A DNA stretch of 64,000 nucleotides. Origin: Streptomyces chrestomyceticus JCM 4735. GTDB taxonomy: Bacteria > Actinomycetota > Actinomycetes > Streptomycetales > Streptomycetaceae. The translations under genes and the position numbers were made by a program. Below the pieces are notes generated by a model that did not search any database, was not told the origin of the DNA, and saw only the letters and a program-made list of their open reading frames with translations. Of this stretch, positions 50,359-53,353 are shown piece by piece. Location of the stretch: the NCBI RefSeq assembly GCF_003865135.1, contig NZ_BHZC01000001.1, positions 4,650,001 through 4,714,000 of the forward strand. The letters are read 5' to 3'. Within the stretch, counting starts at the first letter, position 1. Each line of letters begins with the position of its first letter.

Positions 50359-50526
50359 GGCACTCCTCGACAGGTCAACAACCACGGTCCGGACAAGGAT
50401 GGAGCACCCGGCCCACCGCCCGCACCGTCAAATCCGTCCGAGCCCCTGGACATGACGCCGACGTCAACGGCTACGGTCGTCACGGCGCCCGGAACAGCAC
50501 CGTGCCGGGCCCGGACGGGGGCGGAC

Positions 50527-50961
50527 ATGCGGATCGGAGAACTCGCCGAGCGAGCGGGTACCACCACTCGCACCTTGCGGTACTACGAAGCGCGCGGGCT
50601 GCTCCACGCCGAGCGCACGGCCAACGGTCACCGCACCTACGACGATGCCGACCTCAGGCTGCTGCGGCAGATCCAGGTGCTGCAACGCTTCGGCTTCGAA
50701 CTGGAAGAGACCCGGCCCTTCGTGGAATGCCTGCGCGCCGGCCACCCAGCAGGCGACGCCTGCCCCGCCTCGGTCCAGGTCTACCGGCGCAAGCTGGCCG
50801 AACTGGACGCCTGCATCGCGCAACTCCAGGAGGTACGGGAGCAGGTGGGCGATCAACTGGCCCGCGCCGAAGAGGCCATGAACGAGCTGGCCGGCCCGGT
50901 CACACAACCCGGAGGGCCCCAGCCTCACCCACTGTGCGAGCTCACCCGCGCCGAGAGCTGA
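50527..50961 (+). CDS. MerR family transcriptional regulator
   Basis: 144 aa from ATG 50527, with GGGGGCGG upstream. The N-terminal MRIGELAERAGTTTRTLRYY headpiece is standard, followed by a dimerisation helix. Two Cys (CLRAGHPAGDAC, about residues 71-82) occur at the start of the helix where thiol- or metal-sensing MerR proteins place ligands; whether they bind metal is not known. It is divergent from the serine hydrolase, its most likely target. The last 20 bases overlap the convergent gene. Confidence 0.88.
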   Translation: MRIGELAERAGTTTRTLRYYEARGLLHAERTANGHRTYDDADLRLLRQIQVLQRFGFELEETRPFVECLRAGHPAGDACPASVQVYRRKLAELDACIAQLQEVREQVGDQLARAEEAMNELAGPVTQPGGPQPHPLCELTRAES

Positions 50962-51658
50962 CTCCACCCGCCACCGATGCACCGGCCCCTTCGCCCAACG
51001 ACACGATGGCCTCCCCGAGGATCTGCTGTTCCTCCGCCATGAGCCACCGCGCCGCATGGACCATGTGCAGCACCGACCGGAGCCGGTCACGATCCTGCTC
51101 GGAACCGAGATCACTCAGGTACGCCGGCAGGATCATCCCCAGCGCCCTGAGGTCCTGCTGCTCGCAGAGCCTGGCCAGCAGCCCCGCCAGCAACGCGCCC
51201 TCAGCCTGCCGACCTCCCGCCGCTTCCGTCACCTCCTGTCCCACTGCTGTCCCCCGCAACCCTTCCGCGATGGCGAGACGGTTCCACATCCCGTAGTCCC
51301 CGCCCGGAGCGTCCTCCACCCGCTCGGCAGCGCGCTGAAAGTACTCGTGCGCCACAGCGGTCTCACCCAGCTCCCGGTGGGCACGCGCCATGTTCGCGTA
51401 CAGGGACGCGTAGAACCCGCTGACGCGTTCGTCGCTCACCCGGTCCGCCCGGTCCAAGCACTCCTGATTCCACCGGAGCGTCTCCTCCGGCGTGTCCTGG
51501 TGCCGTGCCACGTAATGAGCGGCGACACATGCCTCGTAATCGTCACTCGCTTCTTCCCACGCCTCCAGGAAAAGACGGAGCGCGATGCCGTCCTCGCCCC
51601 GCGCCTCGGCCTCCATGCCGTGCACGCACAGCCGCACCACATGATTGTTCGCGTCCAT
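50942..51658 (-). CDS. Helical repeat (TPR-like) protein
   Basis: 238 aa from ATG 51658, with AAGGGGAG upstream. Almost entirely alpha-helical, with tandem helix pairs resembling tetratricopeptide repeats: MEAEARGEDGIALRLFLEAW, EETLRWNQECLDRADR, SLYANMARAHRELGETAVAH. No enzymatic motif. It follows the MerR-clamp fusion by 14 bases on the same strand, so the pair forms an operon. A protein-interaction role is likely (inference). Confidence 0.75.
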   Translation of the reverse strand: MDANNHVVRLCVHGMEAEARGEDGIALRLFLEAWEEASDDYEACVAAHYVARHQDTPEETLRWNQECLDRADRVSDERVSGFYASLYANMARAHRELGETAVAHEYFQRAAERVEDAPGGDYGMWNRLAIAEGLRGTAVGQEVTEAAGGRQAEGALLAGLLARLCEQQDLRALGMILPAYLSDLGSEQDRDRLRSVLHMVHAARWLMAEEQQILGEAIVSLGEGAGASVAGGVSSRRG

Positions 51659-51672
51659 CGTTCGGCTCCCCT

Positions 51673-52797
51673 TCAGCCTGTTTCACGTGAAACAAGCACC
51701 CGCACCGGCATGACCAAGGTGGTGAAACTGCCTTGGTCAGCGGAGCGCACGACGACCGGCTCGCTCTCGGAAGCGACCTCCAGCAGCACATCGGGCCCCA
51801 CCCCCGCGTCCAGAGCGGGAACGAGCACCGCCGGATCGAAGGCGATACGCAACGGCGGACCCGAGCAGACCGCACCCACCTCGACCGCCGATCGCCCTCC
51901 GCCTCCGCTCTCGTCCCCGCCTCCACCTCCGCTGACAACCACCTCCTGTGCTCCAACCCGCACTGTGATCACAGCGCCCTTCTCCCGCTCGGCGAAAGCC
52001 TCACGGAGCGCCGTCCGGTCCGCAATGATCCGATGCCGGACGGTCCCCATTCCGTCCAGCACCACCCGGTAATCGGGAAACTCCCCCGCACGCCCCACGA
52101 ACGGGCGGCACTCCCCGCTGTCCCCGATCAGGCGTCCTTCGTCACCGTTCACCTCGATGTCGACGTGCTGGTGTCGCAGTGCCCACACCGCCATGTCGGC
52201 CAGTTCTGCCGCATCGATCAGTAGCCGGGTCGGAGCGCCACCCGCCGTCATCGCCCGCAGGGTCCGGACCGCCAACCGGTACCGGTCGGTGGCCACCACC
52301 CGCACCTCGCTGTCGTCGAGTTCGAGCAACACGCAGCCGAGCGCCGGATACTTCGCACGGGTCCCGGCGTCCGCGACCGCGGGCCCCACCTGCCGTACCG
52401 CGCTGGCCAGCTCCGCACCACCGACACCGGCCCGCCCCCGCGGCTGCTGCGGAGTCTCCGCCGGGCTCCCTCGCAGCATCTCCTCGATCAACGCCCGGGC
52501 GGCGTCCGCCGCCTGTCGCGTCCGATCCACGTGCGAGTACAGGACCGTACGGGCTTCCACCTCGCCCCCGTCCAGTACGGCCCTTGCATCCAGCAACGGC
52601 AGTCCTGCCTCCCGCAACCTGCGGAGCAACACAGCACGGCCCTCCTGCTCGGCCCCGTAGAACCGGTAGCCGCTCGCCGGGTCGACCTTGACGGGACGCA
52701 GGACTCCGCAGTCGTCATAGAAGCGCAGCGCGCTCGGAGCCAGGCCTACCCGCCGCCCGAACGCTCCGATGCCCAGCAGCTCATCGCTCTCGTCCAT
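51673..52797 (-). CDS. MerR regulator fused to DNA polymerase sliding-clamp (DnaN) domains
   Basis: 374 aa. Residues 7-75 form a MerR-type winged helix (GIGAFGRRVGLAPSALRFYD, then ASGYRFYGAEQEGRAVLLRR); 75-112 a dimerisation helix. From about 128 the protein looks like domains 2 and 3 of the bacterial beta clamp: LASAVRQVGPA, the hallmark VATDRYRLAVR (168-178), GEFPDYR (238-244), a Gly-rich loop (290-301), IAFDPAVLVPALDAG (318-332) and a C-terminal TTLVMPVRV (359-367). The clamp's first domain is missing. No replication genes adjoin it. The last codons (VSRET) are encoded by a parS site. Ligand and role are unknown. Confidence 0.85.
   Translation of the reverse strand: MDESDELLGIGAFGRRVGLAPSALRFYDDCGVLRPVKVDPASGYRFYGAEQEGRAVLLRRLREAGLPLLDARAVLDGGEVEARTVLYSHVDRTRQAADAARALIEEMLRGSPAETPQQPRGRAGVGGAELASAVRQVGPAVADAGTRAKYPALGCVLLELDDSEVRVVATDRYRLAVRTLRAMTAGGAPTRLLIDAAELADMAVWALRHQHVDIEVNGDEGRLIGDSGECRPFVGRAGEFPDYRVVLDGMGTVRHRIIADRTALREAFAEREKGAVITVRVGAQEVVVSGGGGGDESGGGGRSAVEVGAVCSGPPLRIAFDPAVLVPALDAGVGPDVLLEVASESEPVVVRSADQGSFTTLVMPVRVLVSRETG
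51679..51694. other. parS site in the last codons of the MerR-clamp gene
   Basis: TGTTTCACGTGAAACA, a full 16-of-16 match to the Streptomyces parS consensus. It lies inside the coding sequence, 6 bases before the end of the stop codon, and 21 bases upstream of the next gene. Confidence 0.95.
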
Positions 52798-52866
52798 GAC
52801 CGCGATTGTGGGACTTCAAGCAACCTGAAGGTCAAAGCCGAGCCGGTGGCGCCGCGCTCCCGTCAC

Positions 52867-53265
52867 CTACGCGGGCGTTCGGCCGAGTGCCTGCCAGACC
52901 CGGCCGCGCAACAGCTCGTACTCGTCGGCACGGCGCGGCAGTCGCCCCACAGGCCGCTCGACAACCCGCCTGCCGGACACCACCTGCCCACGCCTGAACT
53001 GCTCGTGCGTGAGGTCGACCTCGATGCCGCTGGGAAGCCGGTTCCACATGTGGTGCCCCTGCTGCTCCCCGTCGAGGTGCACCTCCCCGGCCAACAACTC
53101 GCCACCGAAGAAGTCGTGCACGACGAGAGCGGTGATGTCGCAGTGGCCCCAGGCCGGGTTGTCGGCGGTCCAGGGACTACGGAGGAGATCGTCGGGCGAA
53201 CACGTATCGGCGGCCCAGCCCGCGCGGATCGCTTGAGTGATGTCAGTGAGCGTCAGAGGAATCAT
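52867..53265 (-). CDS. YunG-like family protein
   Basis: 132 aa from ATG 53265; upstream in-frame starts reach 53331 but add a hydrophobic stretch without support. The core CSPDDLLRSPWTADNPAWGH, then CDITALVVHDFFGGELL and HMWNRLPSGIEVDLTHEQF, resembles the YunG family, with conserved Cys and His that suggest a papain/transglutaminase-like fold (inference). Function unknown. It is convergent with nothing; the MerR-clamp gene lies 69 bases downstream. Confidence 0.75.
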   Translation of the reverse strand: MIPLTLTDITQAIRAGWAADTCSPDDLLRSPWTADNPAWGHCDITALVVHDFFGGELLAGEVHLDGEQQGHHMWNRLPSGIEVDLTHEQFRRGQVVSGRRVVERPVGRLPRRADEYELLRGRVWQALGRTPA

Positions 53266-53353
53266 GGGGTGCAGCATCACAGCAGCCACTGACAACGCAG
53301 CCGTGATGCCAGACACCCCGCGCAAGCCCAACAGCCGTCGTCGTCATGGGCGA

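Follow-up and report, generated by a model that had tools for sequence, protein, structure and literature searches.

A MerR-type regulator of Streptomyces chrestomyceticus with half a replication clamp as its proposed ligand-sensing domain

The stretch of Streptomyces chrestomyceticus JCM 4735 DNA analyzed here (64,000 nucleotides of contig NZ_BHZC01000001.1, positions 4,650,001 to 4,714,000; hereafter the window) carries on its minus strand a gene for a 374-residue protein (51673..52797) in which a MerR-type DNA-binding head is fused to part of the replication clamp DnaN. The head scores above its Pfam cut-offs (PF13411, 39.3 bits against 21.6; PF00376, 31 against 28.2), and the long helix that follows it in the model is expected, from what is known of MerR proteins, to be the dimerization helix. 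The clamp fold spans residues 118–368 and comprises only clamp domains 2 and 3, domain 1 being absent, which bears out the architecture proposed in an earlier, sequence-only reading of this DNA. Two of the three Pfam matches to the clamp part lie below their cut-offs, and the TIGR00663 (DnaN) score of 44.1 bits lies under the cut-off of 137.65. Because domain 1 is missing, so that the chain lacks the three domains of a DnaN subunit, and because that cut-off is unreached, the protein is not a member of DnaN; nor, since it has no TipAS domain, does it belong to the TipA class, with neither TipAS nor GyrI-like effector domains matched in Pfam at E ≤ 1. It is a MerR protein. An internal start yielding a short drug-binding form was considered and rejected, as a Met falls within residues 100–135 in just 16 of 120 homologues, a count of Met codons alone, without ribosome sites or GTG starts.

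Conservation within the clamp part carries most of the argument. At the 10 columns of subsite I, the part of the clamp cleft that receives the hydrophobic end of clamp motifs, mean entropy among the fusion proteins is 0.28 bits, compared with 1.44 over 227 clamp columns (permutation p 1e-5), and identity to Streptomyces DnaN is 79%, compared with 28% overall. Since the pocket might be kept for folding, 41 fusion proteins from three subfamilies (MC1, the window's own, MC2 and MC3) were compared at the 30 columns found near-invariant across 31 actinobacterial DnaNs: at least 90% of the fusions keep 7 of the 8 such columns in subsite I and 6 of the 22 elsewhere (p 0.005). Subsite I is kept in all three subfamilies, and M362 is retained in 40 of 40 fusion rows. 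The groove between clamp domains 2 and 3 is described as the partner site (PMC3335792, excerpt), and in the E. coli clamp drugs occupy both subsites, with M362 as the gate (PMC10817943, excerpt). The fusions have also acquired invariant residues of their own, for example R135 and an R-S-A-D-Q-G stretch at 351–356. At E. coli position 198, a basic residue is found in 28 of the 31 DnaNs (K/R) as against 7% of 58 fusion proteins. No wholesale disappearance of basic residues is claimed, position 235 being R in 21/22 rows of subfamily 2 and positions 205 and 282 being R in 3/3 rows of subfamily 3. Nor is a deletion claimed at the ring contact in domain 3 (E. coli I272 and L273), where two alignments disagree: one has gaps in these columns and the other aligns the residues, as L/V and A.

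The gene is preceded by a predicted promoter whose 19-bp spacer holds a dyad, an arrangement typical of MerR-type promoters; judged by sequence, it is predicted to be autoregulated, in the manner of TipA and AlbA. As the start codon stands so close to the −10 box, the transcript is probably leaderless. The site recurs in 80 of 81 main-subfamily (MC1) sequences (80 loci and the window), the lone exception (L046) being a copy with unrelated DNA attached at its 5′ end. Sites were located by a TTGACC anchor, which fixes those six columns by construction, yet columns outside it are as strict: T8 80/80, C9 78/80, G19 79/80, A20 80/80, A27 80/80 and T31 79/80. In MC2, TTGACCTTC is kept in 20/20 loci and the full pattern in 18/20. 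Of 199 Streptomyces genomes, 39 contain the operator pattern TTGACCTTCRNGYNGSNYGAA, each a single time, and none contains the reversed control; 37 of these operators sit 18–212 bp 5′ of a fusion-gene match on the same strand, and the remaining two (genomes G092 and G138) precede broken copies of the gene. These relics (L151 in G092, L150 in G138) retain the operator, and in G138 the MerR head continues in frame into the TPR part. The exact pattern is missing from five carrier genomes (G052, G064, G082, G090 and G176). The MC3 operator is another sequence, TTGACCCTCGACNNNGTSNAGGGNNC, found once each in 29 of the 199 genomes; 12 of the 29 were fetched, and all 12 precede an MC3 gene, one of them (G013) frame-shifted. 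The 29 genomes do not overlap with the 42 that carry MC1 or MC2, against 6.1 expected in common (one-sided Fisher p 6e-4, kinship ignored), as if the subfamilies replaced one another.

Because the operator occurs once per genome, at the regulator's own gene or its relics, the predicted target is the regulator's own operon alone. A search of its own genome found no wider regulon: it gave a single match to the 22-base site at up to 3 mismatches and a single match to a looser pattern at 0–1 mismatch; at 2 mismatches the looser pattern was no more frequent than the reversed control, with 18 matches, the true site included, compared with 27. Two-mismatch operator matches in genome G000, at 1804109 and 6417206, resemble the palindromes of other MerR or SoxR-type regulators.

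Homologues are numerous. A protein search returned 838 relatives at E ≤ 1e-3 among 8000 candidates scored, and a search of a genome collection gave 84 loci, of which 80 were kept, all titled actinomycetes; the fusion, which the sequence-only reading had regarded as unusual, is thus widespread rather than unique. Genome searches were made within Actinomycetota, and protein, plasmid and phage collections cover what lies beyond. The fusion is present in 42 of the 199 Streptomyces genomes (E ≤ 1e-40), 20 with MC1 (at least 51% identity) and 22 with MC2 (36–42%). A search of 296 genomes from the class gave matches in 32 (E ≤ 1e-30); 26 of these matches include the MerR head and are spread over six families; the others are one that begins at model position 36, two partial matches and three that are DnaN-like, covering the clamp part alone. 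Of 198 genomes drawn from across the phylum, 44 match: in six of them, all within that class, the match takes in the MerR part, and in the remaining 38 it begins no earlier than model position 63, as expected of DnaN. A tree built on the clamp part from 28 fusion and 33 clamp rows places the fusions on one side of a branch with support 95/98, and the subfamilies are supported at 82/92 (MC1), 100/99 (MC2) and 100/99 (MC3), a midpoint-rooted topology compatible with a single origin. The genome with the frame-shifted MC3 gene, G013, also holds a full-length DnaN paralogue (L153:3739-4875) that ends in MSVKQLV instead of MPVRL and has a changed FPxYR motif. As it is placed within Streptomyces DnaN, this second DnaN is a separate, recent copy; it may be a resistance-type clamp.

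Carriage extends to mobile DNA, with the fusion found on 6 of 72,556 plasmid records. Five of the six were opened: on a plasmid of Streptomyces sp. NBC_00354 the fusion and TPR pair lies between a transposase and an IS630 gene, on one of S. coeruleorubidus between istB and an IS5 gene together with one other open reading frame, and on one of Kitasatospora cathayae with no annotated transposase beside the pair; in the two other records the region is without annotation. Matches in the phage collection cover just about 20% of the query (residues 6–89, the MerR part), and PADLOC gave no match to a defence system.

Features of the regulator locus, numbered by position in the window
Feature	Position	Strand	Support
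MerR winged-helix headpiece, residues 1–76	52570..52797	-	Pfam MerR_1 (10–76), MerR (10–47); helices in model
Long helix, residues 79–109	52471..52563	-	Predicted helix in model
Beta-clamp domain 2, about residues 118–252, with cleft motifs TDRYRL and FPDYR	52042..52446	-	
Beta-clamp domain 3, about residues 255–368, with cleft motif LVMPVR	51694..52035	-	Pfam match below cut-off
Predicted MerR-type promoter: TTGACC, 19-bp spacer, CACAAT, 7 bp to ATG	52805..52835	-	
Dyad CTTCAGGTTGCTTGAAG inside promoter spacer	52814-52830	-	
TPR-like protein, 238 residues, second gene of predicted operon	50942..51658	-	
Perfect parS palindrome over codons 369–373 of the fusion gene	51680..51693	+	

The operon with a helical repeat protein foreseen by the sequence-only reading recurs among homologues: the TPR-like gene lies directly 3′ of the fusion gene, on the same strand, at 62 of 81 loci, as found with a profile built from 24 of them, and at 17 of 20 MC2 loci. 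Since 19 of the 81 loci lack it, the partner is common but dispensable. The TPR gene is present in 26 of the 199 Streptomyces genomes (E ≤ 1e-10), in 21 of them beside a fusion gene. The three MC3 loci with at least 3.5 kb of downstream sequence (L152, L156 and L157) have no TPR gene; the 12 fetched MC3 operator loci are too short to show one. Relatives of the first half of the TPR protein form the N-terminal part of long rifampin ADP-ribosyltransferases, an annotation carried by 7 of the 32 plasmid records that the TPR partner matched; two proteins that were inspected are TPR-like up to about residue 118 and match Arr-ms from about residue 125. Long-form Arr proteins with such a related N-terminal half are encoded at L144:3989-4738 and L146:2995-3738. 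This relation is a hint, at the level of homology, of a link with drug resistance. Apart from the TPR gene, no conserved neighbor keeps a constant position in the 53 loci (of 81) that still had the main gene after gene filtering; the other 28 were dropped. In the window, a second, ordinary MerR gene (50452-50961, plus strand) converges with the TPR gene, their open reading frames overlapping by 20 bp at the ends, and a YunG-family gene (52867-53331, minus strand; E 4e-38) sits immediately 5′ of the fusion gene's promoter.

The parS site that the sequence-only reading placed in the last codons of the gene is indeed a perfect palindrome, though apparently not one that belongs to the system: a parS stands in the corresponding position (−14 from the match end) in only 3 of 80 other loci, and any parS in 20 of 80. 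It looks incidental. The same genome has a separate dnaN some 46 kb away from the fusion gene and, because this dnaN/oriC region is so near, parS sites are expected in the window, which holds five perfect palindromes (17635, 47523, 47567, 51680 and 63981), two of them 44 bp apart.

Taking together what computation shows (the domain make-up, the clade, the kept subsite I, the operator with its single occurrence per genome and the TPR neighbor), we tentatively propose, at a little under an even chance, an autoregulated one-component sensor of the MerR type whose effector is a repurposed half-clamp, with a clamp-binding natural product of exogenous origin as the most likely ligand. Two copies would dimerize through the MerR helix, and the dimer would bind the dyad that its own promoter holds in the 19-bp spacer. 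When a ligand enters the cleft that separates clamp domains 2 and 3, the dimer would change to an activating, DNA-distorting state and so raise the levels of both the fusion protein and the TPR protein. One protein might then both sense and soak up the ligand, as described for TipA and AlbA. The ligand would most likely come from the peptide antibiotic class, with an endogenous clamp-binding protein as second choice.

Several observations weigh against such a sensor of clamp ligands. Conservation at the 11 columns of subsite II is no different from that of the average clamp column (p 0.30). The cleft hallmarks noted in the sequence-only reading hold across homologues as far as subsite I is concerned, but other DnaN residues, some of subsite II among them, have changed: N320 (10% kept), Y359 (0%) and R365 (30% of 33 fusion rows; R in 58 of 114 homologues in another count), all near-invariant in DnaN, are lost, and Y323 is altered as well. 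The loss of R365, the arginine to which drugs of the griselimycin class bond, counts here because in the E. coli clamp this residue hydrogen-bonds mycoplanecin (PMC10817943, excerpt). Parts of the cleft could also be kept for folding alone.

Other readings accommodate part of this pattern. The half-clamp might bind an endogenous clamp-binder, such as a polymerase, ImuB or another carrier of a QLxLF-like motif, and report its free amount as a sensor of replication state. The conserved subsite I of all three subfamilies would fit such a role, but we consider it unlikely: patchy, accessory carriage (42/199) and plasmid copies would be odd for a monitor of core replication, changes have occurred at N320, Y323 and Y359, the sole predicted target is the regulator's own operon and not repair genes, and no clamp motif was noticed by eye in the TPR partner. 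For what is likely a clamp-ligand sensor, a drug is a somewhat more likely ligand than an endogenous clamp-binding protein, since a monitor of core replication ought to be carried throughout and the altered residues would be expected to weaken ordinary clamp-motif binding. It is unlikely, though conceivable, that the clamp fold was mere starting material and that the pocket has been re-specialized for a small molecule unrelated to clamp ligands; the drift of subsite II and R365 and the new family-invariant residues speak for this, whereas subsite I is retained more strongly than other clamp-invariant positions.

That the clamp domains serve as a structural or oligomerization part, or hold DNA, and bind no ligand seems improbable. 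DnaN domains do build a DNA-encircling ring, but with domain 1 missing no head-to-tail ring contact is possible, the basic residue at position 198 is mostly gone, and a surface function would leave the retained cleft unexplained. Chance resemblance, a gene fusion artefact or a frameshift, to which the two sub-threshold Pfam matches might lend some color, is contradicted by the homologues and hardly credible.

A more specific form of the proposed clamp-ligand sensor, possible but doubtful, is a target mimic that acts as both sensor and sponge: the clamp would be reduced to its drug pocket, and natural products directed at DnaN would induce a decoy together with the TPR protein.

If the cleft is the sensing site, this family would be a transcription factor with an input domain taken from an essential replication protein, and would offer a first handle on the clamp ligands that actinomycetes meet in nature; the arrangement suggests a piece of replication machinery turned into a sensor. 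Given the operator specificity, a single promoter and a single gene could suffice for a reporter of clamp-binding compounds, and the three subfamilies, whose subsite II is altered, would reveal which ligands differ. Were the ligand an endogenous protein, the system would provide a direct transcriptional readout of the replisome. Should the target-mimic idea hold, carrier genomes would mark natural exposure of actinomycetes to known or unknown clamp-targeting antibiotics.

The openly licensed literature searched contains no account of a MerR–clamp fusion. Automatic NCBI names cover the same proteins, as names without a functional account; those among the best 120 of the 838 matches include "MerR family transcriptional regulator" and "DNA polymerase III subunit beta family protein". 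As the architecture is visible in these names, what is new here is the analysis, the proteins themselves being already in databases. Among MerR regulators with large effectors, BmrR, TipA/SkgA, AlbA and EcmrR share with the fusion the MerR head, the long helix, a C-terminal ligand-type domain and a dyad in a 19-bp spacer, but the effector of the fusion comes from the replication clamp and from neither a TipAS nor a GyrI-like fold. The TipA class comprises minimal autoregulated multidrug-resistance systems (PMC7762955, excerpt), and AlbA is reported to trap albicidin (PMC6078987, excerpt); the fusion resembles this class in combining control of itself alone with patchy, mobile carriage, interchangeable subfamilies and a retained pocket. 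With DnaN the fusion shares the fold of domains 2 and 3 and subsite I of the partner and drug cleft but, unlike DnaN, it has no domain 1, has gained a DNA-binding head and has lost several clamp-invariant residues. GriR and MypR, clamp copies that confer self-resistance to griselimycin and mycoplanecin (PMC10817943, excerpt), are likewise second clamp-derived proteins in actinomycetes; they are, however, extra DnaN genes within a biosynthetic cluster, as the same excerpt has it, whereas the fusion is no full-length DnaN paralogue but a half-clamp mounted on a MerR regulator.
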